DNA from: Magnolia sinica
Taxonomy: Eukaryota; Streptophyta; Magnoliopsida; Magnoliales; Magnoliaceae
Direction: 5' to 3'
NCBI RefSeq assembly: GCF_029962835.1
Contig: NC_080588.1
Coordinates: 49,397,001-49,461,000, forward strand
Length of the DNA: 64,000 bases
In this document: piece after piece, positions 222 to 64,000 of the stretch
How positions within the stretch are numbered: position 1 is the stretch's first letter
Layout: each line of letters begins with the position of its first letter
Position numbers and translations under genes: made by a program
The notes under the pieces: model-generated
What the model was told of the DNA's origin: nothing
Database searches by the model: none
What the model saw: the letters and a program-made list of their open reading frames with translations, nothing else

Positions 222-239
222 TTACATATATATATATAT

Positions 240-784: not shown

Positions 785-809
785 TATATATATATATATA
801 TATATATAT

Positions 810-2427: not shown

Positions 2428-2505
2428 AATATGATCTCCCCAAATGGATGGGCGGTGTAGATACAAAACATACATCATGGAGTGGCCCACAGAACTTGGT
2501 GACTT
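2051..2505. mobile_element. Family C MITE module
   Basis: Inverted ends GTCACCAAGTTTTG and CAGAACTTGGTGAC, each with a CCCACATGATGTATGT-like block. Related copies are at 7501-7893 (one end lost), 17163-17630 and, as a half copy, about 18930-19085. Non-coding. Confidence 0.55.
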
Positions 2506-4053
2506 TCAGTTCGTCAGGGAGTCTGTGGACGCGTACCGCGTCCCACCTCTGCCCATCTCTGGAACAGGAGGTAGCTTTGAGTGGCCACGGTAATGTTTTC
2601 TACGGTCTTATCCACACCGTCCATCCATTTTTTTCATCATTTTAAGCTATTAGCTCAAAAATGTGGCAGATCCAAGATAGATGTGGGCTACACAGTGAGG
2701 ATTAAACCCTTACCGTTGAAAAATTCATTGGGGCCAAAGAAGTTTTGGATAGAGCTGATATTTGTGTTTTCTCTTCATCCAGATCTATGTAAATTTATGA
2801 ATAGGTTGGATGGCAAATATAAATCACGGTGGGCCCCAGAAAATTTTCAACGGTGAGAATTATTATCACCACTGCTTCCTATGGTGTGGTCCACTTGAGC
2901 CTTCTATATATATTTTAAAAAAAAATCGTGATGGATATAACACATACATCATGATGGATCCCACTGAACTTGATGACGTCATCATGCTACTCAACCGGTC
3001 AGTAGCTAATCTGCGTCCGATAATTTCTCGCCAAATTCCCACTAATCCTTTTACACTCTCTCTCTCTCTCTCAAGATATAGATGCTTTGAAAAGTATACA
3101 CGGGTTTTCATTTCTCATAAGTGGGCCCATGTTTAGAAATCCATGCACCTCCTGGCTCTTGTTTTAGCTTGGCTCTTTAACTCTTTTGTCTGACTCTTTT
3201 TATCGGTTTTAACCTTACCTACATTAGCCACATTCAAGTGTTTTTTTTTTCTTTTCACAGTATGACATTTTGAATTGAAAAAATATTTATTGATCCTACT
3301 TTAATGACCAGGAATGTTCATCCATTCGAGTGCCTGCACATCAAGCATTGTATTGCCGTGAGCATCATATGACTCTTCAAAATATGTCCTTAACAACTTG
3401 ATCGCTATGACCTGTTGATTTCTCAAACATTACTTGAAACATTTCAAGATTTAAGTGCATAAATCCCACTGTTAAACAACTCTTGTTAACGAGAAGCAAA
3501 CATAGCAACAGCCTAGCACCACATCCATGGGTGCTAGGCCATGGACCCACCAAAACCAATGAACAAACTGTAATCCTCTAATATGTAAACCAATGAAAAG
3601 AAAAACAAAAAATGAAAATGACATCTATAGATACTTGACCTACTCTTTTTTCTTCTTTTTTATCCTGCTCATGTTGGGGACGATTGAACACAACCTCTTC
3701 AATTTTCTTTTCCTACAAATTATAGATATTGCCCAAACATTAGAAAAAAAAATTGATAATATTTGAAGCACACCAATATTTGAGAAAAATGTTATTTCAA
3801 TTACATAAACAAACCTTTTAATAAGTTCTATGGAGAGAACAATGCTGTGCAAATTTATGTTCTACTTTTTTCATTTTATTACAGCCAAGAAAAATAAACG
3901 AAAGAAGTAAACTCATATAGCATCGACCACTCTAAGAAACTTCTCGATCGAAACCTGGATATAAAAAATGTCATCAGATTTATAGAATTTATTTTACAAT
4001 CAAACAGTTTTCTTAATTAAAAAAATTGCAATGCTATAATGTACACATATAAA
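2506..4053. other. No gene seen; MITE-like then AT-rich sequence
   Basis: The part to about 3050 is more GGGCCCACC-type MITE sequence, followed by a short (CT)n run at 3056-3072. From 3120 to 4053 it is AT-rich with no supported coding region. It probably is the 3' flank of the transposase gene within the MULE. Confidence 0.4.
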
Positions 4054-6369
4054 TTAATGAAAAAATAGTATACCTTGTGCTCCATGCTCTATAACAGAAG
4101 TACGTGTATCACATAATGTTAGACAATTTCTTTTGTCATGCTTCTTTCCACGCTTACCACAACCATTGCATCTTCTTTGATCCTTTTTCTTTTTAAAACC
4201 CTTTTCCCTCTCGGATATCATTCTCTTTCCGGTTCCTTTCGTTTTGGCAGGTTTTGGATCATTGATTTTCATTTTTTGCTTTCTAGTTGGCTTCCTTGCT
4301 GGTTTTCTTATAATTTCAGCACATGGTTCCGACTCTATACTTCAAACATCCCTTAAAATGTCATACAACCTTTCCTTAGCCAAGAGATACCCTTGTTTTG
4401 AGGAAGACCCTTCATCGACAAGTAATCGGCAAATCTGAGATAAATTACTATGACATAGTGAGATGGAATCATCACAATCTGGCTTGATTGCTACCTCGTC
4501 GTTGTCGTGAATAGAACCTACTCTTGCATACCGTATCCATCTCTTCAAAATGTAATACTCTGGCAATATAGGTATACGAACACGTCGAAGTACGCATAAT
4601 ATATGTCTACACGGTATACCTTTGAACTGAAATTTGAGACAACTACAATCAGCATGTTTTTTACTCACTTCATATCTAACCACTCGGTCGCAGTCGTTTT
4701 CTTCCAAGCGTGCAACTTTGAATACGTTATAGACATAAATATCATCATTTTCCCTTTCACCTTCTGCAACATAATCCAATCCTTCAAATAATTCATTCTA
4801 AAATTTATAAAATATTCTCCATGTGTATGTCTCGCCCATTACTTTTTCCATTTCACATGGCGTTTTTAACTTTGGCTTACTACTGATCGTTTCATGATCT
4901 GCAGCAAGCTCGTTATGCCTTTGGCGAGCAAGTGCCCTATCAAACCGAACAATGAAATCTATAAATGAATTACGTTTCGAGATATAACTACGAAAGAATG
5001 CATTCATACTTTCACTACGCTGGCTACTTGACATACCCGCAAAAAATACATGCCGTACAAACGCGGGTATCCATTTATGACGGACTGCATATATAGAGTT
5101 CAACCATACATTATCTTCCAAACCATTCTCTGTCATCAATTTTTCCCATGAATCTTCGAAATCTTCAGACGTTTGCGAATTCCATACACAATCGTTGAAT
5201 GGTCGAATAAATTCATCCCTATGTGCGATGGCTCCTAATTTCTCAGGTACCTTCTGCATTATATGCCAAATACAATACCGATGGAATGTATTTGAAAATA
5301 CAATAGAAATGGCCTTCGTCATTGCTGGATCTTGATCTGTTATTATGGCTTTAGGTGACTCTCCTTGCATCGCTTTACGCCACGACTCAAACAACCAAAT
5401 AAAAGATTCAGTGGTTTCATCGTGTATGAAACCACATCCAAGAGTAATAGACTGCCCATGATGATTTACTCCCATAAATGGAGCAAATATCAAACCATAT
5501 CGGTTGGTATTATAAGTAGTGTCAAAGACTATAACATCACCAAAATATTTGTACGACTGACGTGCAATATGATCGGCCCAAAAACAATGTAATAAGCTAT
5601 TTTCTTCGTCAACTTTCACTTCATATTCAAATGTTAGATGCAACTCTTTCATTTCTTCAAAATGTTCGTACAACATCTGAGCATCACGACCCTTGGATTT
5701 CTGTCTCTTATCCCTTTCATAATTTGTCAAGTCTTTTTCAGTGCAACCTATATTTTCGTACCCACCCAACTGTGCTGAAAGAACGGCCATTGTTTGTGTC
5801 ATCTTAATGTTGGATGCTAGGAAGTCATCTTGTAAGCTTCTCTGCGTTTTCGTCACCATACGATGGGAGTTCAATAGATACTTCTTATGAGGTGTGGCCA
5901 GGTCATGACTATGCACCTCAATGAATTTTTTAACTATGTATTTTGAAATGGATTTTTGAAACGCTACAATCATAACGGCAGGACAATTATCTCTTGTTAC
6001 ACCCCTTCTCCTTTTTAGTTGGCCTTTTTTCTTTTGTGCCTTCTAATCTGTATTTCCCTCTCTCGCACATACAAATCTTTTCTAAACTGTCAATCTATTT
6101 TTCTTCAAGTTTAATTCATCTTCCATTTCACTACTGCTATCATCCGTCTTACTTTCGCTAGCATACTTGCAAGAGCATTTCCTAACACTAAAACCAGCAC
6201 ATCTTGCATAGTTATTGTAAAATTCATAGGCCTCTTCCAATGAAGAGAATATAGTTTTCCCTACAATTGGTTTTTTACATTCTTCTACTTCAGGAATCCA
6301 TTCACTTCTAGAAACAGTTCCTTCACATGATTCAGTTGCCTTAATGGGATCCTCTCCATCGGCATTCAT
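4054..6369 (-). pseudogene. FAR1/MURA-type MULE transposase, broken by four in-frame stops
   Basis: A single reading frame of 772 codons runs from ATG 6369 to a stop at 4054 without a frameshift. It is interrupted by TAG at 6084-6082, 6045-6043 and 4800-4798 and by TGA at 4344-4342. Domains in order: FAR1 N-terminal DNA-binding domain (residues about 35-130, with SVRKC and, between the first stops, KRFVCAREG); MULE transposase core with FDTTYNTNRYG (Asp about 283) and IITDQDPAM (about 345); a SWIM zinc finger with CSC and CRH (Cys 575, 577, 587 and His 589); and a C-terminal CNGCGKRGKKHDKRNC zinc knuckle. FAR1-family proteins are MULE transposases or regulators domesticated from them. Sitting between the long arms it is the element's own transposase. 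Stop readthrough is not expected, so it is called dead. Confidence 0.85.
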
Positions 6370-7109
6370 TTGTTAATAGTAGTACGACCTACAAAAAAAA
6401 TTAATGCTTTCTCAGAGGCATTGTCCAAGTCCAATATGAGAAATAGAAAATAGCAAAAGTACTGCACAAAACAATAATTTCATTCTAAGCGGCCTTTGAG
6501 AGTGACTCATCTGAACTAAAAAAGAAATTACATGTTGACATATGTTAGGGGATTCGCGGGAGTAGAGATTTAGGATAACATTAGTCACAATTGTGTCAAT
6601 GTAGTACACATTTTCAAGATCTAGGCCACTCATTAGGTGGGTCCCACTATCAAGAGTTCCTGGACTAGAAAAAAAACCTATCAACTGTACTAGCATGTAC
6701 ATTAAATAGCCTATTAGTCCATTTTTTTTTGTTACAACTAGGGTTTGATTTTGGGTAAGGTGTTATTTATGGTGGACCCATCTAATGAGTGGAACGGATC
6801 TCTTCCTAGACCACCATGACTCCCACATGTGCTGAAAATAACATTTTCAACTCTCTCATATTTAGAATCTTATATCACTTCACTTGTAATTAATTCAATC
6901 TCATTGCCTATGCTAAATAGATTATTATTATAATTATTCATTGATACACGTTGCTTTTTTTGGATATGTTTTTTTAAGGCAATGTTATCAATTTTTTTCC
7001 TTATAAGTTTATCTACTTAAGTTTGGTTTTTTCAATCAAAAGGAGAAGGAAAAACTTTTTTGGTCAATTTCATGATATCTCTTTAAATCTGATTGTTTCT
7101 GATTAAGTT

Positions 7110-7115
7110 TCTTTT

Positions 7116-7198
<83 letters not shown>
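7110..7198. repeat. (AT)n microsatellite
   Basis: About 88 bp of uninterrupted AT dinucleotides inside the MULE. Confidence 0.95.
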
Positions 7199-7201
<3 letters not shown>

Positions 7202-7295
7202 TACACATTGCAGAAATTGGAATATCAAAACTCTAACCGGATTTAGCTTTCCCAAATCTAGGAAGCCCTAACCGATCCAAAACAATAGAGAAGGG

Positions 7296-7297
<2 letters not shown>

Positions 7298-7350
<53 letters not shown>
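7298..7350. repeat. (GA)n microsatellite
   Basis: About 52 bp of GA dinucleotides, followed by shorter GA runs up to 7490. The homology between the two MULE arms stops just beyond, at 7501. Confidence 0.95.
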
Positions 7351-7351
<1 letters not shown>

Positions 7352-7500
7352 AGATTCTGGGAGAACGGAAGAATGGCACAATTAGAAAGCTGTCATGAAT
7401 GTCGAGCCAAGAGAGAGAGAGGTGTATGGTGTTTTTGATAGGGTGGGTTTGAGAGAAGATTTTCTCTTCGGATAGAGAGAGAGAGAGTATGAGAGGGGGG

Positions 7501-9138
7501 CATAATCCAAAGAATGAGTCAGATCCCAAGATCTAGTGGACCCCACCACAGAAAATAGCGGGGAGAGTGATGCCCGCCATTAAAAAGTTCTGAGGGCCAC
7601 AAAAGCTCTCGATCAAGATAATATTTGTGTTTTCCCTTCTTCATGTATGCGTTAACACATGAACAGATTGGATCTCAAATAAAAATGATGGTGGACCTTT
7701 TGAAGGTTTCAACAGTGGCGTCACTCTCACCACTATTTTCTATGGTGGGGTCCACCCCAGCCTTGGATCTACCTCATTCTTTGGACCATATCCTAAAATG
7801 ATCTCTCCAAATGTTTGGAAGGTGCGAATACAACACATACATCATGTGGGGCACACAGAACTTGGTGACGTCACTCCAGTCGTCTCTGGCTACTCAACCT
7901 ACGCCAGTATCCATTCCACGTCAACCTCTGTGGTGATGCCAATTTCTTGCGAAAGCCTTTGGCAGAAGAAGTTCCTGGGCAAGGATGCTGGGTGGGGCCC
8001 ACCACCATGTTTTTGGAAAATATATTCCGTTCATCCATTTTGCAATCTAATTTTAGGATAACCGACAAAAAATGAGGTGGATCCAAGACTCGATTGGGCC
8101 ACACGAGAGGAAACAGTAGGGTTTCAGTGAGAACCGTTGAAACATTTTTATGATCATAAAAGCTTTTTTCCAGGATAAATTTTCTATATTTTCACTTCAT
8201 CCCTGTGTAATCACCTTATAAACAGTTTTGATGGCATATAAACATCAAGGTGGAGCCCAGGAAGGTTTCAATGGTAAGTATTTCTTTCTCCAATTTTTCC
8301 TCTCGTGTGGCCCACTTTAGTTTTGGATCCACCTCGTTTTTGGTCGATTTTCCTAAAATGAGCTCTACAAACGGATGAACGGAGTAAATTTCCCAAAAAC
8401 ATGGTGGTGGGCCCCACCCAGCATCCTTGCGCAGGAACTTCTTGCGAAAGGCTTTCACGGGAAATCAAATCTGCCCCTTAATTACGCTCGCAATTTGCAA
8501 AGTTCGTTGGAAATTTAGGTGGGGCCAACCATGATGTTTTTGAGAAATCTACCCCATCCATCCATTTTTCCTTATCATTTCAGGGCATTATCTCAAAACT
8601 GAGGCAGATCCAAATCTCAAGTGAACCACACCACACGAAGCAGCGGTGATAATGATTCTCACCGTTAAATATTTTTTAGGGCCCACCATGATATTTATTT
8701 GACATCCAACCTGTGGATTAGGTCATGCAAACCTGAATGTTGGAAAAAAAGTAAATATCAGCTTGATCCAAAAATTTGGTAGCCCCAGGAAGTTTTTATT
8801 GGTAAGAGTTCAATCAACACTGTGTGGCTCACTTGAGAATTTGATCTACCTCAATTTTGGGTTTATACCATAAAATTATTTTAAAAAATGTATGGACGGC
8901 GTGGATTTATCATTAACATCTTGGTGGGACCCACCTAGCATCTCAGCGAAAGAATTTTACGTAAAAAGGCTTTCGCCGCATCCTTCGGAGAGGGGGTGAA
9001 GAGACGCGAGAGAGAAGGAAACTCGCTTTTTTAAGCTCGCGCTAAGAGTGCCTTCATCCAGACCATCTACCTTATCCAACGTTTGATAGGAAGGTTCACA
9101 CATAATGACGTGCGAACCGGTGCGTAGCTGAGCGTTCC
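7501..9138 (-). repeat. Right long inverted arm of the MULE
   Basis: Reverse complement of 810-2427. It contains a family C module lacking one end (7501-7893), a family B module (about 7936-8475) and the outer module (about 8480-9000). Its tip keeps about 22 bp that are missing from the left arm. Confidence 0.8.
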
Positions 9139-9151
9139 TATATATATATAT

Positions 9152-9671
9152 GGAAAAGGTTCTATATGGTCGAGCTGTGTGGGCCCCACCATGATGTATG
9201 TCGAACATCAACACCGTGCATTTGATGGGTCCCCTTTAAATTATGGGATATCCCAAAAATCAGCCGAATACGGAACTCTAGTGGGCCATACCATCTAAAA
9301 TCATGGGAAGACATACCTAAAACATATAAAGGCACTTGGCAGGGCCCACCTGAAATTTGGATGCGTTTGAAACTTGGTCTGACCCCTCATCCAAGTGGGA
9401 CACGCATAATGGATGGGCTGGATTTGTGAACCACATCTCGGTGGGCCCAAAAAATGATTATGAATGTTTTAATGGAGGGTAACCCGTTTCAACTTTTGTA
9501 TGTGGTGTGGCCCACACAAATCACGGATTGACTTGATTTTTAAGCCCTAGGCCCACTATGGAATGGTGCATCTCACTGATGGGGTAGATGTTCGACATAC
9601 ATCATGGTGGGGCCCACACAGCTCGACCTCATGGGGAGTTCCCATGAGCTCGACCGTATAGAACCTTTTCC
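9152..9671 (+). mobile_element. (TA)n-associated MITE, family A, copy 2
   Basis: About 520 bp with inverted ends GGAAAAGGTTCTATATGG and the complement ending in CCTTTTCC at 9671. TA runs lie on both sides (9139-9151 and 9672-9688). It has the same orientation and interior blocks as copies 1 and 3. Confidence 0.75.
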
Positions 9672-9688
9672 ATATATATATATATATA

Positions 9689-10234
9689 GGGAAAAGGTAC
9701 AATGCGCTCGAGCTGATTTTAACGTCCCATGAGGTCGAGCTGTGTGGGCCCCACCGTGATGCGTTTTGAACATCAACACTGTGCATTTGATGCGTCCCCT
9801 TTAAATTATGGGATATCCCAAAAATCAGCCGTATACGGAACTCAGGTGGGCCATACCATCTAAAATCATGTGAAGACATGCCTAAAATATATAAAATCAC
9901 TTGGTGGGGCCCACCTGAAATTTGGATGCGTCTGAAACTTGGTCTGAACCCTCAGCCAAGTGGGACACACATAATGGATAGGCTGGATTTGTGAACCACA
10001 TCTCGGTGGGCCCAACAAATGATTATGAATGTTTTAATGGAGGGTAGCCCCTCTCAACTTCTGTATGTGGTGTGGCCCACGTAAGTCACTGATTGACTTG
10101 ATTTTTAAGACCTAGGCCCATGATGGAATGGTGCATCTGACTGATGGGGTAGATGTTCGAAACGCATCATGATGGGGCCCACACAGCTCAACCTCATGGG
10201 ACGTTAAAATCAGCTCGAGCGCATTGTACCTTTT

Positions 10235-10237
<3 letters not shown>
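9689..10237 (+). mobile_element. (TA)n-associated MITE, family A, copy 3
   Basis: About 549 bp with inverted ends GGGAAAAGGTACAATGCGC and its complement ending at 10237. It is separated from copy 2 only by a 17-bp AT run and is followed by a long (TA)n. No coding potential. Confidence 0.8.

Positions 10238-10306
<69 letters not shown>
10238..10306. repeat. (TA)n microsatellite
   Basis: About 68 bp of TA dinucleotides directly at the right end of MITE copy 3. Short ORFs across it encode only Tyr-Ile repeats and are not genes. Confidence 0.95.
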
Positions 10307-10307
<1 letters not shown>

Positions 10308-10443
10308 CCTAAGGAACTTGTGCGAACTTTTTTGATAACTCATCATACATGATGTGACTTTAAAATATGAACGGTCTACGTGAAACAACAACTTATGAAA
10401 TCCTGCGCTTAATTTTTACTTTGATCCAAAACTTTGGTGGGCC

Positions 10444-10445
<2 letters not shown>

Positions 10446-10475
<30 letters not shown>
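10446..10475. repeat. (GA)n microsatellite
   Basis: About 30 bp of GA dinucleotides just before the right arm of the outer inverted repeat. Confidence 0.9.
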
Positions 10476-10477
<2 letters not shown>

Positions 10478-10690
10478 TACATGTGCACCTTCTCATGTTA
10501 GCACCCATGCGCATCTTTGCACATATCTTAGGCACATAATCTGCACGTGTCTTAGGCACAGAATCTGAATGGTCCATGTGATGTGGCACCCCGTGAAACT
10601 CCACGAGCCCTATTTTTAGCTTGATTTAAAACTCTAGTGGGCCATAGCAAAGAGATGCAAGTCAAGGGAGGAAACTGCTTGCCATGGCCA
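10470..10690. repeat. Right arm of the outer inverted repeat
   Basis: Pairs with 1-221. Its far end (10617-10710) is itself a short palindrome built from an AACTCTAGTGGGCCATAG block and its complement. Confidence 0.6.
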
Positions 10691-33993: not shown

Positions 33994-33998
33994 AACCG

Positions 33999-34892
33999 TG
34001 TTGATGACTAAATCTGGGAGACTCTTCGCTCCGACTCACTAACTCCAATATGTTTCAACGTTTTGAACCTGCACACTTGGAACAAGCAAAGGAGACCCTG
34101 GTTAAGCCAGGGGACCCTCCGATGCCTAAGTCAGGTTAAGGGAATCTGGGCTAAGTTGGGAAGTAGAGGGAGAGTGTAAGATGTTGCGTACCTGTAGTAA
34201 TGGGGTTTTCATTGTATTTGTACCTGATCATCAGACGGACTGGGTCCGTTAATCTCGGCATGATCTGCTCAATCAGTGGGATTTTCGGATCGTGGGGATA
34301 TTGCCCGCAATCCAGGGATCGTATAACATATCTTGTGTATCTGTGGGCGAGGTAATCGGTCATGCTTGCTTAAGGTAGTTTTTTATTTTAGCGCATGAAG
34401 CGTCTGCATTCCTCCCTGGCCTCAGCTCGGGACTTTTGGTCGAAGAGGCCCTGACTAATGTGGACACGAGCCTTTACTGTTGATTTGTTAAATGTGGATT
34501 GTGTCATGAGTCTGAGCCGAGCACCAGTCTGGACGTAATGTGGACTTGGCTTTATTCATCTATCGAGCATTTTAGAGGTCTTCCCTCCGAGCTCTGTGGC
34601 GGGTTGGCGGATTTGTCCGATCGAGTTGAATTTTTCTGCAATTAATGCAAGTGGTTGACTTATTCATTTTTGGTCGGGACTGCCTGTAGCTTTTGACTTG
34701 AGCTTCACATTGTTTATCTTGGATCACTCCGAACTGACTACTATCCTCGAATGAGGAGTGCGACTGGGACTAAACTGAGAATTCTTCCTTTCCTTCAGCA
34801 GCATTGTCCATTTAGATTACTTATTATGCATCCGATCGGATTAGTATGCTATGGCTCCTAGGATTTGAAGGGGTTCGGATCTTCCCATAACA
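33999..34892 (-). repeat. 3' LTR of the gypsy element
   Basis: 894 bp. On the minus strand it runs TGTTATGGGAAG...TCATCAACA. The partner LTR without its insertion is about 895 bp. Many transitions separate the two. Confidence 0.85.
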
Positions 34893-45340: not shown

Positions 45341-45463
45341 AAATGTTGATGACTAAATTTGGGAGACTCTCCACTCTGACTCACTAACTTCGATCCGTTT
45401 CAACGTCTTGAACCTGCACACTTGGAACAAGCAAAGGAGACCCTGCACTACCAGAAAAATGGG

Positions 45464-45935
45464 CAAAGGCTACGGATAAAAACCGTAGCTAAAGGCCTAT
45501 AGCTACGGTTAAAGTCCGTAGCACGACCGTAGCCATTGGTGCCATAGCCATAGGTCAAAAATCTATGGCTACGGATGAAATCCGTAGCCATATAGTCAAT
45601 GGATATGGATTAAATCCGTAGCCATTGCTTCTGTAGTGCAAATGTATTTACATCTACGGATTATATCTGTAGCTAAAAGTAGAGCGAGAACCATAGCAAT
45701 AGGCTTAAATAAGCAACTGCTATGGTTTTCAGATAAACGGCTACGGTGAATAGCCGTAGCGATAAAACGATAGGTACGGATTAAATCCGTAGTAATTTTT
45801 CCGTAGCTCTCAATTATATACAGGTACGGATTATATATGTAGCTAAAAGCATAATGAGGACCGTAGCAAGTGGCTGAAATTAGCATGAGCTACGGTTTTC
45901 AGCTAAATGGCTACAGTTAATATCCGTAGCTAATT
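45464..45935. repeat. CACTA left subterminal repeats
   Basis: About fifteen copies of GCTACGG/CCGTAGC in alternating orientation, often as the palindrome CTACGGATTAAATCCGTAG. Such arrays are transposase-binding sites in CACTA elements. Confidence 0.8.
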
Positions 45936-46020
45936 CCTATTAAATAAAAAAATTAAATAATAATGACAGCTTTTACCATGGTAGTACACCCTGATAACTC
46001 ATATAAGCTAAAATAGATAA

Positions 46021-46150
46021 ATACTTCATGGCTAAATCATTCATTCATTCAATCAAACAAAATCATTCATTCATTCATTCAATCAAATAAAATCATTCAT
46101 TCATTCAATCAAACACAATTATTCATTCGTTCAATCATATACAATCATTC
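46021..46150. repeat. CATT-rich minisatellite
   Basis: ATCATTCATTCATTCAATCAAA-like units of about 26-30 bp, repeated about four times. Confidence 0.7.
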
Positions 46151-46194
46151 ATTTCCATTCACAAAAGTACAATGCCAACATAATAGTTATATGT

Positions 46195-46354
46195 CTATTT
46201 AAAGTTCTCATTAGCAGCAAGATCCAATGCCTTCTCGCAGCCAAATAGCTTCTCAACAATCATAAGCGAAAACTCCATGGATGTGCCTCTACTGGTTATC
46301 AATTTGCCATTAACTAACACCCTATTCTTTGCTTCACTTTGATCCGAAAGCTTA
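46195..46354 (-). pseudogene. Captured DJ-1/PfpI-family C-terminal exon
   Basis: A minus-strand exon with an acceptor (TTGTACAG) ends in a stop. It encodes RVLVNGKLITSRG, then MEFSLMIVEKLFG and CEKALDL. This is the conserved C-terminal block of plant DJ-1 proteins (usually TSRGPGT-MEFA-IVEKFYG). The Pro-Gly pair after TSRG is missing, so the glycine-rich turn is altered. Only the last exon is present. Confidence 0.75.
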
Positions 46355-46484
46355 CTGTACAAGGATGAAAATCAATTTCATCATACAAAATGTAAGAAAT
46401 TACATGTTATGACATTATACGTAAGAGGCTGAAAATGTGTTTGCGTGTGTTTTGAAGATTGAGCTGAAAATGCAATGGACATAC

Positions 46485-46566
46485 TTGGAATATGGCCATC
46501 CCAAGACCTGCATTTAACAAGATCTTGATAGAATTTTCCATGATCTGAGGCTTCCTGTAGATGATC
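46485..46566 (-). pseudogene. Captured exon resembling a PIN auxin efflux carrier
   Basis: 82-nt exon with acceptor TATATTTAG and donor GTATGT. The relevant frame reads PQIMENSIKIL then AGLGMAIF, matching the PIN block MP-IM--SI-ILSDAGLGMAMF. A second frame is also open, and the exon is short, so confidence is moderate. Confidence 0.5.
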
Positions 46567-46659
46567 CTAAATATAGCAAATGGTAGTGCAAATATGCCAA
46601 TGGACTTTGTGTATCAGGTGTTATCGAAGTTGACAAAACTGCAAGAAGTGAATTATAGT

Positions 46660-47380
46660 TATCTAAATAGCTGAAAAAGATTTAAAGAACCACTGGGTAC
46701 CCAATGGGCAGCGGAACCTGATTGGATCTGGGTCTGGGTCCTCAAGAATGAGACTCGGGCACGGAAGTGACTAAGACCCAGTAAGATGTTAACCAGCTAA
46801 GTCAGAACCAGTACTATAGGACCCAACCTGAACCCGACCTGTTGATAGCCCTTGCTTCTTTTCACTTAAATCCTTTTCTTTTCTTTTGGATGGTGCCAAG
46901 AAGTAAGCACAAGCATCCACAAACCCTCCATGAACCATAGAACACACCAAATTTGATTGTAGGATATAAAAAAATCTCTGACCGTTTCTTGTGGTGTGGT
47001 CCACCTGAATTTATATCTGCTTCGGTTTTGGGACCATGGCCTGAAATAACCTGTAAAACAGATTAACGGTGTGGATATAAAGTACATACATTAAGGTGGG
47101 CCCCTACGGTCAGGTTCTCACCAACATTGCTGGATCAGGGTCGCAACCAAGTCTCTCTCAATTTTACCACACTTGATTTCCAACATGTTACCCACCGATC
47201 TGGATCGCCCTTGGCTAAATGGGTCAACCCGTTTAGTAATAGACCCAAAAGTCACGAGCTTGGCCTCTTTTTAATCACCTTTTATTTCAGGCCCAACCCA
47301 ACCCATGGACATCATAAACCACCTGATTATCAGGCTTGGGTTGGGACTGATAATCATCCTTCGTCTGTTGCATTATAAAT
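46660..47380. repeat. MITE-like fragments inside the CACTA element
   Basis: TGGGTACCCAATGGGC and CCCAACCTGAACCCGACC near 46690-46840, then a GGGCCC-type MITE half at 46970-47120 ending in GTCAGGTTCTCACC. No gene. Confidence 0.4.
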
Positions 47381-49740
47381 GGTTTTTATCATAGAATTCA
47401 TAATTGCTTTTAAACTATGTATGTACTATACTATGTATCTGAGTATTCACAACCACAATCAAATTGTTTAGAGATATTCGTGTACCTGTTTTCATCTAAA
47501 AGAAGAGTCACTATGATATCTCAGTATGATAATCTAAAAATTTCCAAACATGAGTAAGCACATGAGTGCACATATAATTTTGTACATTATGTTCACACAA
47601 TTCAATCAAACATAAGGCCACATGTGTGATCGAGGACCTGTATTAAATTTACAGGTACAATTAAGAAGTGTGGGTGTATTAAAGTCGTACTTGACTCAAG
47701 CTAACTAGTTGTAATAAATGATCAAGCGATTTGCGAATAGATAAGAGTGAGTCCTTTAGGATGGATTCTTTTTGCCTTACGGCTTCAAAACTTTTCTTTC
47801 ATCATTAATTGCAATTAATATTTCTCAAAGAAATAATGGTAGATGAATATATAAAAAGAATGCTAAAATAATGTCAAGTTTATTAATATTGAACGAATGC
47901 CAAGAAGTGTTGCAGCAGAAATTTAAAGCCAGTGTTCGGATGAGGCAACTAAGTAATTTACTTTTTTTTAAGAGCTAGATGACTTTTTGGTTGTTACTAA
48001 TGACTTCTATCTTGCCTTCCTATCTATTCATTATCCATATGACAGATGCTGTAATGGCCTCGTTACAGGTGCCCAGATGCCAAATCCATGTGCTTGTTAT
48101 TTATTTCACCTAGTAAATACTTTAAGAAAAATAATAATAATCAAAACTATGACAGTTAGAATTCTATTTGCAAATGGTCACCTAGACAAGCAAACTGATG
48201 TCACTAGCTCATGAGAGCATACCTTGCTTGGTGTAGTACAATGCAGACCAACACACTATGCATAAATGTTAAAGAGAATAAAATTAATGCCCTTTCCATA
48301 CAATTAAGCTGAGGAATATGAAAGAAATCATATTGTAGTTGAATCTGTTTAGCAGTTCAAATTAAGCAGCAGAAAATCAAAGAGCTCAATTCAAAACATA
48401 CATCAAAAGAAAGTTAAAGGACAACTTTCCAATTATAGTTAATAGATATTACTCAGAAGTAGAATTTACCTGTTAAGTTTGTATCCCTTGGAACATCCAC
48501 CAACAATGCAGGTCCTACTAAAAAAAAATCAACAATTAGAATGTTTATAGTGAAATTAGACAAAAGCCAATATATGATTGGGCATAAAGCATTTGTAGGT
48601 GGCTTTTCCAGTCCACTATCAAATCTCATGGCTCTACACCAAAAATATTATCTTAAACCACAGTATACGTGCTTCGATGAGGACTCAGGATCAGCCATGT
48701 GAAAACCTTATATTCCCTGATGAGGTTCTACCCCACAGAAATGCTCTTTAACGGAACTTTATCTCACTCATTTGAACACCTATTGATTCTACCAATAGAT
48801 TGCAGAATCATTCGAGCCTTTCAATTCACAATGATATCTTGTGCTGAGTTTGGGTGCACAAGGGAATTGGATTGCCAAATTCAGTCTAATGAAAAGCAAC
48901 TAACAAACTAATAATGTTTCCAAGTATCATAATGAGGAAGCAGCCTACAAATTACAGTTACATACCTTTTCAGTCTAACTAGAAAGTAACTTAATTACAA
49001 TACGGAGCCTGGACAGAGGTTGCAGCTGCAGCTACAGGTGCAGGCACACATTCCAGAACGACTGCCGTCTCCAAAACCTGCAGGACCCAACAATCAGCAA
49101 GACACGGGGAAAAAAAAACTTGGGAGGAAGAAGGCAATCTTGAGGGTATTGGTGACATTTCGTCCCTAAGGCCGGAACCCGCCAAGGATGCTGATCTCCT
49201 GCGACGTGAGTCCTGCATGCCCCATGACTGTTAGATCATGACTGTCCATTCTCTACAATCATGTGGAAGGATCTGAAAGCATAAAAGAAGAATTGGATAC
49301 GAGAAGAAGTGAATTTAAATTCCTACATAAAACAAAAGAGTAAAATTCAAGAAATTTGTACACTATATACCCCAATTGCAGACACGTGTCTTGCACTTTG
49401 CAATCTCAAAGGGATTTGTATCAGTTTTCAGTCTGAAACTCACACTATATACCTCTTGTCACCCTACCCTGCATGACCACAAAACAAAAGGCAGCAAAGG
49501 GACAAAAAAGGAATGGAAGTGAGGCTACTAAGGATGGCTGTTAATGATGTGAGTTTCTACAACTGTTTCTGTTCTTACTTGGCAAACACACAGGAATTCT
49601 TAAATGGATGGTGGATGCATAGCTTATACAAATGACAACTGTTTGGTTGCTACAGTACACAAAAATAAATCCAATCTATGCAAATGATATGTTTTAGATA
49701 AACAAAGACACCAAGACTCCAATTTTAACTTCTGTGCAGA
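47381..49740. other. CACTA interior with no assigned gene
   Basis: AT-rich. A 48-nt segment at 48470-48517 has both splice consensus sites (minus) and open frames but is too short to identify. A minus-strand segment at 49218-48991 with a Ser/Ala-rich 75-codon frame could be a further captured exon. Neither has a recognised family. Confidence 0.35.
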
Positions 49741-49744
49741 AAAC

Positions 49745-49870
49745 CTCTGCATCGTCACCCCATATGAACTTCATCCTGCCCATGGCATAAGGTGGGTATG
49801 CCACCATGTCCCCTTTTCTAACTTCGAATCCATCTGGTAAGGTATCGTCTGCTAGGCAGTATTTCCCATT
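49745..49870 (-). pseudogene. Captured CYP704-like cytochrome P450 exon
   Basis: A 126-nt, 42-codon, phase-0 exon with acceptor TTTCTAG and donor after GATGCAGAG. It encodes DDTLPDGFEVRKGDMVAY, then YAMGRMKFIWGDDAE, the stretch between the ExxR and PERW motifs in CYP704/CYP86-clan omega-hydroxylases. No heme-binding exon is present, so no active enzyme can result. Confidence 0.8.
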
Positions 49871-50224
49871 CTAGAAACATTACAAAATCAATACAAATGC
49901 CATCAGCAATTTATTGAAGAATTTTTATATGTGATTAGATGTAGTGATTGAACTCTGCCATGTCTACTCGCGATTGCCCACATGCAAATGTAAAATGTGT
50001 TTGTTTGATCTGGGCCGTTCCTTAGGTTGCATGCAACTCTCAGACTACAAAAAATCTAAGTATTGAAATAAACCATTGTAAATAAATGCCATTTGATGAT
50101 GTGTTCGAGCATGTACCCATCCCGTTCCCCAAAAAGTATTGCCGTAGACATCAAAAAGAAGACTAATTCTTAGGTCACAGCAAAGCAGTACACAACACAA
50201 ACTTTGAAAACTAAGGGAACATAC

Positions 50225-50298
50225 TTCATCTAAAAACTGATCCTTTAAGGATCCTCTAGCTTTCTTAATGATTTGGATGGCCTCTAAGTTTGTACTTC
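50225..50298 (-). pseudogene. Captured CCT-beta (TCP-1 chaperonin) exon
   Basis: A 74-nt exon with acceptor TTGGCAAG and donor GTATGT encodes STNLEAIQIIKKARGSLKDQ then FLDE. This matches the CCT2 block whose usual form is IQIIKK-GGSLKDSFLDEGF. The second residue of the usual GG is kept and the first is Arg. Confidence 0.75.
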
Positions 50299-50624
50299 CT
50301 TGCCAAGAAAAGAGATGATTTAGAATAAAGCTGAAATTGAATTGTCACAACTAAAACAAAATAATTCAGTTTATCATGGTATACTATGACATGGAATTGC
50401 AAAAAATTATTCTAAATAAACAAATACAGAAAGATCATAATCTTTCAAGGCCCAACATTTTTAAAAAAAAAAAGAAGAAAAAAAAAAGAAAAAAAAGAGG
50501 ATATTATTGGATTACTTTCTCCAAATCCTCTAGCAAATATGTATCAGTAGATTGTCTCCTTGCAATCAAATGATTTCAGAAATTTAACAAAAAACAGATC
50601 AGTAGAGCACACTGACCTGGTCTT

Positions 50625-50680
50625 CAAAAACTGACCATGGACTTCCTGATCTTGACTGTCCAGCAGGTATCTGCAGAGGT
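50625..50680 (-). pseudogene. Possible captured exon of unknown gene
   Basis: Acceptor CCTCTGCAG, an open 48-nt segment encoding PAGQSRSGSPWSVFEDQ, and donor GTCAGT. It may belong with the NAC piece or to another gene; I cannot identify it. Confidence 0.35.
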
Positions 50681-51371
50681 GGAAGGAAAAAGGTACTAAA
50701 ATTCTACAAACATTTGACTTTGCTATAAGCAATCTTTAGAGGTAACATGCACTAAAATTCTGCAACCATTTGACTTTGCTGTAATGCAATCTTTTGAGCT
50801 AATAAACACTCTTTAATGTTTGTGGTATCTTATTAAAAAACCATGTTGAACATTAGATTTCATATTTATTCTATTTACATGGGTTTCGATTTCACAAAAC
50901 CATTAAAATGACCAAACAGAATTTTCAAAAACAGAGTGCCAACATCAATGAAAATACAGCTTCTAACAGGAACTTCATTTCCATCAATGAAAATATTCCA
51001 TAAGTTCTCAAGACATAAAAAAGCATAGCTAAACCAACATGGAAGTCAAAAGATGAAAGGTTGTGCTTGAGAGAGATCCATGAGCCATGATATTAGAATG
51101 GTTAAAAAGAAAAAAATTGAAATGATGAAACAAAAATTCCAATTCACTAGCCCATAAGTGGCAGCCCAGATATGTTGAATCAAGCACTACTGTGTAATTA
51201 CAGTGAAACAAGCACTACTGTTGAATCAAGCACTACTGTGTAACTACTGGGAAATGAGAAGCTTAGACCTTTGAAGGAAATTGCTAACGAGTACAACCTG
51301 GTATAAATGCACCGAGTAATGCTATAGCCAAATATTATTCTGCCAAAAGAGCCACAAGACTAGCTCGTTAC

Positions 51372-51741
51372 CTCAACAGTATGACTTCCATGGGAAGCTG
51401 AAGCCTCAATGTCCTTGTCAAACAATTTCGACAGCAGCTCATTGATATTAAAATACTCAAGCAAAGAAGGATCCTCCTCGCCAACAACAGGAGACAGTTG
51501 TGTGGTTCCAACAATGAATCACACCCTATCCCAGCCTCAGTTGCGCAGTTTGTCATGACCATATTTTGGCCATCTGCTGAACCAGGTGAAGGAGAACTAG
51601 AGCCAGCAAGAGGAAGAGATAACGAAGAATTGTTTCCCGCATCATCATCCCAATCTTCTTCTCTAAATGGTGCTCCATGCTGTTCACCATTTTTCGGGCC
51701 CGGTCCACTCTTTTTTAAAACTTTGCAGAGCACAAATGCAT
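51372..51741 (-). pseudogene. Captured NAC transcription factor exon
   Basis: An exon with acceptor TTTTGCAAG (51742) and donor GTAACG (51371). It starts [20 protein letters not shown], the end of a NAC domain, then [12 protein letters not shown] and a Ser/Pro-rich region. About two thirds through (near 51510) the frame shifts by one base; the other frame then reads [20 protein letters not shown] to the donor. The DNA-binding N-terminal exons are absent. Confidence 0.8.
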
Positions 51742-52584
51742 CTTGCAAAAAGAAAAGAGAAAAATACACCCAACTCAGTTTGGGAACAAACAAAATTGGT
51801 CATGTTGGGGTTTCTTGTACACATGTTTAAAATGGGTTGTGGTTCTATATAGTACAAGAAGTTTCCTCTATAGCACAAATGGACAGTGGTTAACATTCAA
51901 CTAACAAATATGGTTACAAAAAGGAGCATTTAAATGCATATACAAAGCTTCTTTTTGATGTTTGAGATCAACCACAAACAACCTACATTAATACATATGT
52001 GCATGCACATACATACTCGCTACACAATACACATACATAGTAATGTCCATCCATAACTACATTCATATGCACTACACAAACATACATATAAATGCATACA
52101 TAAAATCAAAAGTGTCGCTTTACGGGTTCATGAGACATCCATGTATGTGTGTTTCAGCAATTTACATATTTGACAACAACCTGACAAAATCTGAACCACT
52201 ACAAATGTACAATAGTTTCAAGCCTTCATTTTGATCGAAATCACTCATTCATTGAAATTTTACCTGTCAGAAGCTAAAAGTAAACCAAGGAAAATTAACA
52301 AAATTTGTAGGCAGACATGAACTCTGACCATCTTTTTTGAAAAAAACAAAGTGAGTTGTGCTCATAAATAAACTTTATGGTCTATATATTCCTTTGTGGG
52401 AAAAAAAAAATCCTCATCATCATTCCCAACTGCAAACCTAACAACAATGGATTCCTTAACCTGGGTTTCAGTGGGGATATCAAGTTATATATTCTTCTCA
52501 ATTTCAATCCTGGTTTTCTTTTTATATATTTAGACTGGAGTATTAAACAGGACTGGAGTTTTTGTATTTAGACTGGAGTATAAG

Positions 52585-52765
52585 CAGGACTTGTTGTTAA
52601 TGTTGTTGTTGTTGTTATTCTTATTATAATATTTTGTTTGGCATGTCATATTGTTAGGATTCATGATCGAAGTAATGGCATAAGCTTGATGGCGGCTGCC
52701 AACCAGATGCAACCCCTCTCCTTTATCTAGGCTTGGGATCAGCAATGAGAGCACTGATCCCACAT
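52585..52765 (-). mobile_element. SINE-like repeat (Au-like), copy 2
   Basis: A (TTG)n run, then TTGATGGCGGCTGCCAACC, GATGCAACCCC and TAGGCTTGGGATCAGCAATG. It shares its right part with 23525-23650. Inserted in the CACTA element. Confidence 0.5.
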
Positions 52766-52830
52766 GAGCAGTGTAATAGACTATTACATAAGTTGATTAC
52801 AATCAAGTGCTATTTAATAGTCTGTTAAAG

Positions 52831-53400
52831 TAAAAGGTTCTACATGTCTTGGAAAACTGCTAGTAGCCATAAAGCCCTTTTCATACCTAAAATGCAATTT
52901 ATCAACAACTTTTTTTTTTTTGGCAAATGTGGGCCAGATCACTACTTTTTCCACAAGTTTTGATTAATTCCAATATGTAAGTACTAAAGCATCCTAAGCA
53001 CTTTAAGAACAATTTATCACCAAACTAATGAAAATTACACAATTTATAAATAAAGATCAAAGAGCACTTCTAACAGGTCCCTAATAATCTAATCAAAGAC
53101 TTTCTTCATGGTCGTAACAGATGAAACGAACTGTCCTCTTTAAGAGCAAGTCCCCTGAAACTCTTTTTATAGCAAAGAAACCTGCAGATCCTCACTTGAA
53201 TGGAGGACATCTACATTTAAGAAAGCATCAAATAAATGAAAACTGCTTGCAAGAATCTAACAAAAGCATGACCTCTAGGACTCCCAAAGGCAAAGGACTA
53301 AGAGAAGAAGGAAAGACATGTACCCACGGTGGACAAATGCCTTGTGGAACTATGGACGAACTTGATAGACCAAATACCATGTAGATATAACAACATGTTG
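52831..53400. other. CACTA interior, no supported gene
   Basis: An 87-codon plus-strand ORF (53121-53384) is hydrophilic and has no recognisable family. The rest is AT-rich. Confidence 0.35.
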
Positions 53401-53939
53401 ATAGCCACTGACATCACTTTCTGAAGTAATGGCACTGCTCGAGCTCGGGTCTCCATCTTCACTCACCAAATCCAACATCTGCTCAGATCCATCACCATCT
53501 CTGATCTACCTGTGTTACAAATTCGGCATCAACTCAGACCTATCATCTCCGCTCATTGAAACCCACCACCGTCCCCTCATTGAAAACTGAAAACCCATCT
53601 CTCCTTAGCTGTAACCGCTGAAAACCTTTGTTCTCATCCAACCTTCGACCATAGATGTCGCCCATTGCAATCCGATCAGGCCAAATCCACCCTCATTGTA
53701 GTCCCTTCAAATCCATCAGGTCAGGCCATCACCCAAATCTGACAGCCCCCAAAATCCTTTCCGCATCCGCCATTAGAACCCCCTTGAACCTCTGCCACTG
53801 CCTCTTCTCTGTTGGAATCATCACATGCAAACCCGGAGAGCGAGGGAATGAGAAAGGAAGGGGGAGACGTGGGAATGAGAAAGGGGTTTTGACGGGTGTG
53901 AGATTGAGATTGAGAAAGATAGAGAAGAGCGGTGCGGGA

Positions 53940-53996
<57 letters not shown>

Positions 53997-54040
53997 CGGG
54001 GGAATAGGGTTGAGTGGAGGGAAATGAACATTTCGTGAGA
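53401..54040 (-). other. Leader-like region at the CACTA right side
   Basis: GC-richer and pyrimidine-rich on the minus strand, with (C)n and (CT)n tracts at 53942-53998 and an open frame starting at about 53830. Its position, just inside the right subterminal repeats and upstream of all captured fragments, fits a promoter and first exon for a minus-strand chimeric transcript. This is inference. ORFs through the (CT)n tract are low-complexity. Confidence 0.35.
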
Positions 54041-54049
54041 GGGAGAAAA

Positions 54050-54930
54050 GAAAAAGGCTACGCGGTTTTCCGCATTTTTACCTGTTACGGCCCTACTATG
54101 GTTTTTAACCGTAGCTAAAATCCAATATGACCATAGCCATTGTGCAATCCGTAACAGCCCCTCCACGATTCACATTTCACGGGATCTGGATGGACGACCT
54201 TGTCAAGGGCTTTGTGGGGCCCATCTTGATGCAATCGATATATCCACTCTGTCCATTAATTTTGTAATTTTTTTATAGGGAATGAACCCAACATCTAGGC
54301 AAATCAAAGGTCAAATTGAACCACACCATCGATCAATGGATTAATCTCCACTCTTTCCTACCATGTGGTCCAGTTGAGCTTTCGATCTACTTCCTTTTTT
54401 GGGTTCTTGCCCTAAAATACTCTTAACAAACGGATAGACGTATTAGATGGAGAACACACATTTTAATGGGCCTTGTAGAGTCCCTTATGGGGTATCCAAG
54501 GTTGTACGCAGGTCTGACAGAGTTAGCCTTTAGCTACGGTTTGGACAGTATTAGCTACAGTTTTTGGGTTGCTTGGAATGAGTTGAAAAATGGGAGAGAA
54601 AGGGTTGTAAAGAGAGAGATGTGATAGAGTGATGGATGGGAGAGAGAGGGATGGGTGTGTAAGGGCCTTTTTGACTTTTGTGGTAGATTTTGTAAGAAAG
54701 GTATGGGTGGTGTAAGAAACTTTTGACTTTAGAGTTGCTTGGGGATGGGTGAGAGGTGATGGTGTACTTGATATGTACTTGACATGATGGGATTGATTGA
54801 TTGATGTGATAAGTCGTAGAAATTCTCTCAGAATTCGCACGCGCGGCGTTTTAAGCCATAGCAAATGAGCTACAGTTTATAGGCATAGCTAAAAACCAGA
54901 ATAGTCCGTAGCCTTTCATTGTTTTTTTGG
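54050..54930. repeat. CACTA right subterminal repeats
   Basis: Diverged AACCGTAGCTAAAA, AGCTACGGTTTGG and AGCCATAGCAAATG units on both sides of the MITE. They are less regular than the left side. Confidence 0.6.
54205..54500. mobile_element. MITE inside the CACTA right subterminal region
   Basis: GTGGGGCCCATCTTGATGCA at the left and TTTTAATGGGCCTTGTAGAG at the right, with paired CCACACCATCG and CCATGTGGTCCAGTTGAG blocks. It splits the CCGTAGC-type repeats. Confidence 0.45.
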
Positions 54931-55731
54931 TAGTGTTGGCTAAGCCGGGGGACCCTTTGATGCCTAAGTCAGGTCAAGGGAATCTGGGTCTAAGTTGGGA
55001 AGTAGAGGGAGAGTGCAAGATGTTGCGTACCTGTAGCAATGGGGTCTTCATTGTATTTATACCTGATCATCAGACGGACTGGGTCCGTTAATCTTGGCAC
55101 GATCCGCTCAATCAGTGGGATTTTCGGATCGTGGGGATATTGCCCGCAATCTAGGGATCGTGTAGCATATCGTGCATATCTGTCGGCGAGGTAATCGGTC
55201 ATGCCTGCTCAAGGTAGTTTATTATTTTAGCGCATGAAGCGTCAGCATTCCTCCCTGGCCTCGGCTCGGGACTTTTGGTCGAATAGGCCCTGACTAATGT
55301 GGACACGGGCCTTTACTGTTGGTTTGTTAAACGTGGATTGTGTCATGAGTTTGAGTTGACCACCAGTTTGGATGGAATGTGGACTTGGCTTTATTCATCT
55401 GTCGAGCATTCTAGAGGTCTTCCCTTCGAGCTCCGCGGCGGGTTGGCAAATTTGTCTGGTCGAGATAAATTTTCCTGCAACTAATGTAAGTGGTTAATTT
55501 ATTCGTTTTTGGTCGGGACTGCCTGTAGCTTTTGACTTGAGCTTCACATTGTCTATCTTGGATCACTTCGAACTGACTACTATCCTCGGATGAGGAATGC
55601 GACTGGGACCAAACCGAGAATTCCTCCTTTTCTTCAGCAGCGTTGTCCATTCAGACTACTTATTATGCATCCGATTGGATTAGTATGCTGTGGCTCCTAG
55701 GATTTGAAGGGGTTTGGATCTTCCCATAATA

Positions 55732-55960
55732 AACCGTTTGGATGGAAGATAAAAATCAAGATTGAACGTAGGAAGATTTCAATAGTAGGCATTTCTTTCC
55801 CATTTTTCTCTCTTGTGTAGCTCACTTAAAATTTGGATCCACTTCATTTTTGGTCCCCTATATTCAATTGAGCTATACAAAAGTATAGATGGGGTGAATT
55901 TCTCAAAAACATTGCAACAGGCCCACGTAGCTTCTGAGTGCAAATTCACATCCTCTGCGA
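55732..55960. mobile_element. Right half of the MITE split by the gypsy element
   Basis: Continues the MITE broken at 33998. GAATTTCTCAAAAACATTGC and GGCCCACGTAGC form the inverted partner of ACGTGGGCCCAC and GAGAAATTCACTC near 33775-33810. Confidence 0.6.
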
Positions 55961-62577: not shown

Positions 62578-62905
62578 AATGGTTGTGGTCATAACGAACA
62601 ATGGGTTGTGGTTGTCATCCACAATGGGTCGTGATTGACAACCATGACCCAATGTGGATGATGACCACAACCTTATGTGGATGACGACCACGACCGAAAG
62701 GAAAGGTCGTGGTTATTATGAACAATGGGTCATGGTTGTCATCCACATTGGATCGTGGTTGGGAAGCACCACCTATTGTACATGACAAACATGACCCAGA
62801 CGAAGGGTCGTGGTTCACATGCACAATGGATCGTGGTTGTCATTCATATTAGATCATAGTTGTCAGCCACGAGGCCCATGGCCCAATCTGGATGAAAACA
62901 TGATC
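62578..62905. repeat. GGTCGTGGTT motif array, part 1
   Basis: GGGTCGTGGTTGTCATCCAC and ATGACCACAACC-like units alternate in orientation about every 20-40 bp. Non-coding. Confidence 0.8.
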
Positions 62906-63094
62906 CATCGCTCAAAAAGGCTTCCGTCTAAGTCATATTCTCTGAAATAATAGGTAACTTCTTCAAAGTGCTCTGACACCATGCAATTATTGATCCAAGG
63001 ACAAGGGCATTTTCATCTGAAACAATTTATAACATTTGTCAGAAGGCCACTCTCGGAATAATTGGGAGGTAAGACCATGCATTAAGGCCAATAC
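62906..63094. other. Spacer between array parts
   Basis: About 190 bp of non-repetitive sequence without a gene. Confidence 0.5.
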
Positions 63095-64000
63095 GGAGGG
63101 TCGTGGTTATGAAGAACAATGGGTCGTGGTTCACATGGACAATGGGTTGTGGTTCTTTTGTCGTAGTTATGATGAACAATGGTTTGTGGTTGTCATCCAC
63201 GTTGGATCATGGTTGTGAACCACGACCCAGTGTGCATGGCAACCATGACCCGGACCAAGGGTCATGGTTCACATTCATAATGGATCGTGGTTGTCAACCA
63301 CGCATGCGAACCACGACCCTTTGTTTGGGTCGTGGTTTTACAACGTGAAAGGTTGTGGTTGTCAACTACGAAGGGTTGTGGTTGTCACTGTCAATGAATC
63401 GTGATCCAGTGTGCATGACAACCACCACCCGGATGAAGGATCATGGTTGACATGCATAATGTGTCATGGTTCAGATGAACAATGGATTGGGGTTGTCATA
63501 CAAAGTGGATCGTGGTTGTGAACCACGACACCCACTGTGTTGTGGATGTGAAAAATACAATCCTTATAACATGACAACCACGATCCATATAACATAATAA
63601 CCACGACCCATGTAACATGAAAATCATGACCCATATAGCATGAAAACCATGACACATAACAACTGCCAACCACGACCCATGTAGCATGTAACCATGACTC
63701 ATAAAACATGACAATCATGACGCATCAGTGTGGGCCCAACGAGTTGCGCTTTTTTCACGGCCCTAAAAAGAACGATCCTTATAACATGACAACCACAACC
63801 CAATTGGCATGTGAACCACAACCCTTGGTTTGGGTCGTGGTTTGACGATGTGAAGGGTTGTGGTCGTCACATACGAAGGGTCGTGGCTATCACGTACGAA
63901 GGGTCGTGGTTGTCATTGTCAATGGTTGATGTTTGATTTATTGGAGGGTGGAAGGTTTCAAAACGTGAAGTCATGGTCTTAAACTATCAATGTGGAGGTT
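63095..64000. repeat. GGTCGTGGTT motif array, part 2, to the window edge
   Basis: Dozens of GGTCGTGGTT and AACCACGACC units in mixed orientation, spaced by variable ATGAACAATGG and CATCCACATTGG-type linkers. Near 63540-63720 the phase is ACCCATNTAACATGAAAACC. All ORFs here are translations of the repeat. The array continues beyond the window. Confidence 0.8.

Follow-up and report, generated by a model that had tools for sequence, protein, structure and literature searches.

How did one transposable element come to hold exons of several unrelated host genes, all reading in the same direction? The question is raised by positions 45446-54935 of the window, the 64,000-nucleotide stretch of Magnolia sinica DNA analysed here, for which a preliminary description had proposed a CACTA element with exons of at least four, probably five, host genes on the minus strand. 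The element is a non-autonomous Pack-CACTA mosaic. Fragments of at least six host genes were found in it, all on the minus strand: NAC-like, CCT-beta, P450, PIN, DJ-1 and ketopantoate hydroxymethyltransferase. The first five lie in the order first claimed, as borne out by relatives in the same genome (the NAC name is tentative), and the sixth had been overlooked. The best explanation as a whole, in which the element is one copy of a high-copy mosaic family that would have been shaped by mobilisation, stepwise capture and a filter on direction, was given a probability of about 0.85. More tentatively, at somewhat less than even odds, this CACTA family would collect host exons in a single polarity only, that of its own gene's sense strand, and end in a shared DJ-1 last exon. 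Searches for copies, donors and domains covered the contigs of the 1.84-Gb genome (127 contigs). Contigs C1-C19 look like 19 chromosomes, a number that we presume fits Magnoliaceae.

The first 14 bases of the element start with CACTA and agree at 13 of 14 positions with the reverse complement of the last 14; the ends resemble CACTACCARAAAA...AAAGGCTACGG. Subterminal short repeats, a CACTA/EnSpm trait, are strong at the left end and few at the right (of the GCTACGG/CCGTAGC motifs, the first 500 bp contain 14, the middle 8.5 kb one and the last 500 bp two). The ends are thus well formed, as had been described, and a six-frame Pfam scan of the element likewise found no transposase between them. 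The element splits one long terminal repeat (LTR) of a retrotransposon on the minus strand (33999-55731; 33994-55736 with its own 5-bp duplication, AACCG). The partner LTR provides the empty site and reads ...GACCCTG/GTTAAGCC, against ...GACCCTG[element]TTG/GCTAAGCC in the split one. Three bases are extra in the window, therefore 3 bp were added on insertion; the 3-bp duplication described earlier stands in length, and its two copies (CTG and TTG) are one substitution apart. The LTRs differ at 8.4% of positions (Kimura two-parameter distance 0.091 over 892 aligned bases). The CACTA element is younger than the retrotransposon hosting it.

A search for other copies, as the preliminary description had advised, uncovered a high-copy family. 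Every copy was reached by way of the DJ-1 exon: among 343 first-look candidates the best 40 were scored, and all 40 match at E 1.7e-61 or better. A 6-bp deletion relative to the DJ-1 parent is common to all 21 aligned copies. Twenty copies were fetched (genome loci are numbered L), every one with the DJ-1 block, which belongs to the left end of the family; in 19 of them alignment to the element begins within its first four bases (L021 is the exception), and some ends are degenerate. Both ends were found in six of the 20 (L010, L017, L022, L023, L025, L027), with a 3-bp duplication that is exact in L010, L022 and L025, has one mismatch in L017 and L023, and is not clear in L027. The right-end pattern was found at 69 genome places, versus 0 for a reversed control. 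Copy interiors differ. They are made of exon-plus-intron pieces of many host genes, with blocks of at least 500 bp common between copies at 76-96% and combined in differing ways.

The window copy did not itself capture its set of fragments; its DJ-1 and PIN pieces are common to the family, and its interior unites a P450+CCT lineage with a NAC lineage. The NAC-like fragment has 19 genome matches, all scored, comprising the window, the likely parent, 13 near-full places and four partial ones. None of the 13 near-full places (10 of them read, L039-L048) has P450 or CCT, and the window is the sole coincidence. Six other full-length P450 copies were found, with CCT within 0.5 kb in five and NAC in none. 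One of the P450 copies, L050, aligns to window positions 49452-50604 and then stops, while the alignment of L010 starts at 50605 and those of L009 and L028 at 50599. Since the two groups of places are separate elsewhere and the alignments break at 50604/50605, the window copy joins two lineages; by eye, little or no sequence is shared at the join. Whether the fragments fall outside the element in other copies had been raised as a possible objection. L010 holds its NAC fragment inside its own ends (duplication ACA/ACA); for the P450+CCT copies the ends were not seen.

Strand polarity was scanned in the window and 13 copies. Set A comprised the six copies with both ends found (49.3 kb), and set B comprised L012, L014, L016, L019, L020 and L024 (the leftmost 8.2 kb of each). 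L015 was added; L009, L011, L013, L018, L021, L026 and L028 were left out. All frames were translated, with X at stops. At Pfam E<=0.01 the minus strand of set A contained GDI, Not1, coatomer beta (two models), gamma-tubulin complex, Arf, Sey1, HMG box (two models), pyruvate kinase, Rce1-like and Transpos_assoc, and the plus strand Atrophin-1 alone (0.0092). The minus strand of set B contained GDI, CNOT1_HEAT, Ribosomal_S3Ae (2.8e-53), EPSP synthase, ELMO, DUF4216 and two weak matches; the plus strand contained DUF3915 (3.3e-4, 2/18 members), Atrophin-1 and HTH_ParB (0.0092). EF-hand, AUX/IAA and Mem_trans were found on the minus strand of L015. No plus-strand match was better than 0.05 in L015 or better than 0.4 in the window.

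For the polarity count each host family was entered once at Pfam E<=0.001, and transposase domains were excluded. Fourteen Pfam families were entered (GDI, Not1/CNOT1, coatomer, gamma-tubulin complex, Arf, Sey1, HMG, pyruvate kinase, S3Ae, EPSP synthase, ELMO, EF-hand, AUX/IAA and PIN), to which the NAC-like, CCT, P450, ketopantoate enzyme and DJ-1 fragments of the window were added through their relatives. Coatomer_b_Cpla was merged with coatomer, HMG_box_2 with HMG_box, CNOT1_HEAT with Not1, and the EF-hand models with one another. Rce1-like (0.0066), DNA_topoisoIV (0.0028) and MC7 (0.0099) were dropped as weak from the minus strand; DUF3915, Atrophin-1 (0.0039, 0.0092), HTH_ParB, Zn_SUZ12 (0.051) and Arm_APC_u3 (0.4) were dropped from the plus strand. 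Pyruvate kinase (4.8e-5) was counted although it is below Pfam's own cut-off. Leaving DUF3915 aside, the tally of minus to plus was 19 to 0 (two-sided sign test, 3.8e-6); within elements with both ends found it was 14 to 0 (1.2e-4). The matches located inside their own elements were HMG, Sey1 and coatomer (L017), Not1 (L022), gamma-tubulin complex (L025), Transpos_assoc and pyruvate kinase (L023), and GDI (L027). The two strands of set A have similar stop rates (0.0586 and 0.0606), as do those of set B (0.0620 and 0.0599).

Several points weigh against this picture of a one-strand, transposase-dependent family. DUF3915 was set aside by judgement as low complexity, and the tally is 19 to 1 if it is counted. 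Open runs of at least 100 residues number 14 on the minus strand and 7 on the plus strand of set A, versus 12 and 14 in set B. Matches in set B and L015 could lie outside an element, because right ends were unfound in 14 of 20 copies; Ribosomal_S3Ae in particular could be a flanking gene. Copies were sampled through the DJ-1 exon only, and the NAC label is tentative. That 21 DJ-1 copies contain no stop, where 3.6 would be expected, hints weakly at something beyond pure neutrality. Transposase_21 had 1669 genome candidates, of which 150 were scored and 147 typed. The 40 DJ-1 places have none of the 147 typed sites within 30 kb. Of the 69 right ends 67 were typed, and a single site sits 13 kb away from one of these, on its outer side. 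No autonomous partner was identified, none of these 147 sites being tied to the family ends.

Likely donors were looked for in the same genome, as had been recommended, and were found for four genes. The likely parent of the NAC-like fragment, L038 (C2:19395347), contains the exon within 374 bp and with no frame break, has more open exon-like stretches behind it, and is without the block structure typical of transposon copies. The NAC label was taken from the sequence pattern and is tentative: the exon had no Pfam match and no meaningful PDB match (best E 9.5), and the NAM domain was absent from the 3.4 kb read at L038. For the P450 fragment 11 genome matches were found and all scored; the likely donor is L049 (C6:17860604), the exons of which match P450 structures in the PDB (E 4.6e-9, 5.5e-5). 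P450 relatives of the captured fragment lie at 79-92% within 60 kb at C6:17801474-17860799 (L049 and two at 79-80%), apparently as a tandem cluster. All 15 genome matches of the CCT-beta fragment were scored. The exon of L054 (C2:52648796) is intact between AG and GT, and further CCT-like places are L055 on C4 (read) and a third on C9 (match only). Among 26 DJ-1 profile matches in the genome, three DJ-1 last exons were read (L051-L053), and L052 is the closest. A second DJ-1 exon, from the first part of the domain, was noted in another family copy (L013:2924-3121), therefore the original DJ-1 capture may have exceeded the window fragment.

No donor of the PIN fragment was found among the PIN-type genes of the genome search; in three copies or more (C9:37.22, C1:118.32 and C9:45.39 Mb) the DJ-1 exon has a second PIN exon no more than 0.3 kb away. 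Ketopantoate hydroxymethyltransferase has eight profile matches at six places. The fragment agrees with the eight loci at 74-82% over 85 to 259 columns, or at 93% over only 55. The cleanest-looking gene by eye, at C13:44.73 Mb, is a candidate for the direct donor. Gene identities rest mainly on genomic relatives because PDB matches of whole window frames were weak (CCT-beta E 0.13, DJ-1 E 0.83, a third frame none); the DJ-1 and PIN labels are supported by Pfam matches of relatives. The likely donors of the NAC-like, CCT, P450 and DJ-1 pieces lie on different chromosomes or 33 Mb apart (C2:19.40, C2:52.65, C6:17.86 and C3:121.54 Mb), and not side by side as a linked origin would have had them.

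Intron sequence was carried along with the P450, NAC-like and CCT pieces, therefore capture occurred at the DNA level. With the four likely donor loci, these introns support the preliminary description in its claims of a Pack-type CACTA assembled from several unrelated donors and of genomic rather than mRNA capture. Its further statement that splice sites are kept held in part. The NAC splice donor is kept in all 12 sequences aligned, the window included. The NAC acceptor is CAA in the window and CAG in the parent and in 10 of 10 other copies read, and the CCT acceptor has changed from CAG to CAA. The P450 fragment terminates within its exon, the DJ-1 "acceptor" falls in the interior of the exon of the parent, and the PIN donor site is lost in the window and present in several other copies. 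The window NAC exon has a 4-bp deletion. Clean AG and GT borders were seen around the Sey1 fragment in L017. Feature coordinates are collected in Table 1.

Table 1. Features of the CACTA element and of its insertion site, in window coordinates.
Feature	Position	Strand	Basis or remark
Partner LTR (empty site); AACCG (33994-33998) precedes	33999..34892	-	LTR alignment
Split LTR, first part	45344..45445	-	LTR alignment
Target-site duplication, left copy CTG	45443..45445	.	Comparison with partner LTR 33999-34892
Left terminal inverted repeat CACTACCAGAAAAA	45446..45459	+	End comparison
Left subterminal GGCTACGG-type repeats, both orientations	45468..45931	.	Motif count
DJ-1 last-exon fragment; begins within parental exon; family-wide 6-bp deletion	46195..46354	-	Likely parent C3:121543860 (L052)
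Truncated PIN (Mem_trans) exon	46485..46566	-	Several other copies: same exon with donor site and a further PIN exon
Exon-like stretch bordered AG/GT	48470..48517	-	By eye
Ketopantoate hydroxymethyltransferase, pieces of two exons with an in-frame stop and an internal deletion	49011..49252	-	Pfam E 0.0043
P450 fragment: partial exon (49730-49870) and upstream intron	49730..50016	-	91% over 292 columns to L049
CCT-beta exon fragment and some upstream intron	50225..50298	-	Exon of L054, C2:52.65 Mb, looks intact
Junction of P450+CCT-type and NAC-type elements	50604..50605	.	L050 alignment end, L010 alignment start
Exon-like stretch bordered AG/GT, in block common to L009, L010, L028	50617..50670	-	Alignment and AG/GT borders
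NAC-like fragment of one exon (51372-51741, 4-bp deletion) with intron on either side	51300..52827	-	Likely parent L038, C2:19.40 Mb
Right terminal inverted repeat	54922..54935	-	End comparison
Target-site duplication, right copy TTG	54936..54938	.	Comparison with partner LTR 33999-34892
Split LTR, second part; AACCG (55732-55736) next	54939..55731	-	LTR alignment

Selection on two of the exons was estimated from substitution counts that are rough, as differences inherited by several copies were counted repeatedly. The 21 DJ-1 copies have 105 differences from the majority, namely 33 synonymous, 72 non-synonymous and 0 stops, where 34.1, 67.2 and 3.6 are expected without selection; C-to-T and G-to-A changes account for 66 of the 105, a pattern known from methylated repeats. 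Eleven NAC copies gave 21 synonymous, 46 non-synonymous and 2 stops (expected 17.9, 49.0 and 2.1), and the NAC subfamily consensus contains one stop. By these counts the NAC and DJ-1 exons look like neutral passengers.

In the preferred explanation, copies would be moved by a CACTA transposase supplied in trans, and pieces would be acquired stepwise through aberrant excision or repair copying. Many of the 150 scored Transposase_21 candidates have long open frames, therefore sources of CACTA transposase are plentiful. The element's own gene may once have spanned it on the minus strand, beginning at the right end and finishing at the left. Transposase remnants lie on that strand (Transpos_assoc, complete in L023; DUF4216 in set B), which makes right-to-left transcription plausible, and the captured pieces would then be sense. 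Pieces that would be transcribed antisense would not be kept, perhaps as their antisense RNA would act against donor genes, and the outcome would be a chain of sense-oriented exons. The same one-strand order could come from the capture step itself, if insertions prefer one orientation relative to transcription and a segment between two same-orientation insertions can enter one way only. Several pieces are intron-exon-intron or intron-exon blocks, as expected if the trapping insertions sit in introns, and related Pack-TYPE elements have been reported to insert locally in the same orientation (PMC8903248). No family copy was seen flanking an intact donor gene in the short stretches read (3.4 kb at L038, 2.8 kb at L049), and this origin of the order is possible but rather unlikely. 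Selection against antisense RNA to housekeeping genes and a preference in insertion orientation would either one give the polarity, and the data do not separate them.

The exon chain might instead be a working chimeric gene under selection, in which captured exons are spliced behind a promoter at the right end and the DJ-1 last exon forms the 3' end. All recognised window exons are on one strand, several AG/GT borders are kept (Sey1 in L017 and the NAC donor among them), and the DJ-1 exon is stop-free in 21 copies. Substitutions in DJ-1 and NAC nevertheless fit the neutral expectation, the NAC subfamily consensus has its stop and the window NAC its deletion, and two acceptors are altered, so that a selected gene is improbable. 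Far less credible still are two other origins. Capture of one genomic block already holding the genes side by side would agree with the single strand throughout, but other copies carry subsets, and it was rejected because the likely donors are spread over C2 (19.40 and 52.65 Mb), C3 and C6, that of the ketopantoate enzyme being likely on C13. Retrocopying from messenger RNA would suit the exon-sized matches and was rejected for the P450, NAC and CCT pieces, which retain introns.

The cargo of maize Helitrons is known for a same-strand bias. Elements comparable to the one in the window have been described in several plants. Tgm-Express1 of soybean, a 5.7-kb CACTA with fragments of five unrelated host genes and retained introns, is alike in combining pieces of several unrelated genes with their introns (Zabala and Vodkin, 2007; PMC1947982). 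It differs in the chimeric transcripts that were shown there; the window family, in turn, is high-copy with a shared DJ-1 core. One chimeric reading frame of Tgm-Express1 has FPK-derived sequence in minus frames (PMC1947982). Pack-CACTAs of Arabidopsis and maize share CACTA ends, a target-site duplication and coding DNA from several loci, those of maize containing the most distinct loci; no strand test of captured exons was found in the passages on orientation, strand and antisense (PMC8903248). On wheat chromosome 3B, 140 capture events in CACTA elements were reported, with exon shuffling between genes and exchange of captured DNA between families; most captured genes tested there were reported to be under purifying selection, whereas the two exons tested here look neutral (PMC4290129). 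Maize Helitrons likewise gather several unrelated gene fragments stepwise, visible by comparing related copies, but are without CACTA ends (PMC3288121), and captured fragments are also reported for Chenopodium CACTA elements (PMC8978399). Within the literature on the orientation of captured pieces, represented mostly by titles, no report of a strict one-strand bias of CACTA cargo was found. Multi-gene Pack-CACTAs are already known from Tgm-Express1 and are frequent in maize, and the surprise is the polarity of the cargo.

Elsewhere in the window, positions 138-10547 form a large inverted arrangement with arms such as 813-1486 and 8440-9113 (674 nt, 92% complementary) and with TA and GA simple repeats inside. 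Degenerate repeats around GGTCGTGGTT... occupy 62581-63946, partly with 23-bp spacing (63526-63832).

New genes have been proposed to arise from transposons that carry pieces of genes; to our knowledge, whether capture is random in direction, and why, is an open question. A high-copy mosaic family with identifiable donors and one-strand cargo allows the capture step to be separated from later selection, by comparing young with old and sense with antisense pieces. If the more tentative reading of a single-polarity family is true, its members would be transcribed from the right end in the manner of long genes rich in introns, with antisense pieces purged or never entering, and many exon combinations would have been made in one genome under a measurable directional filter.

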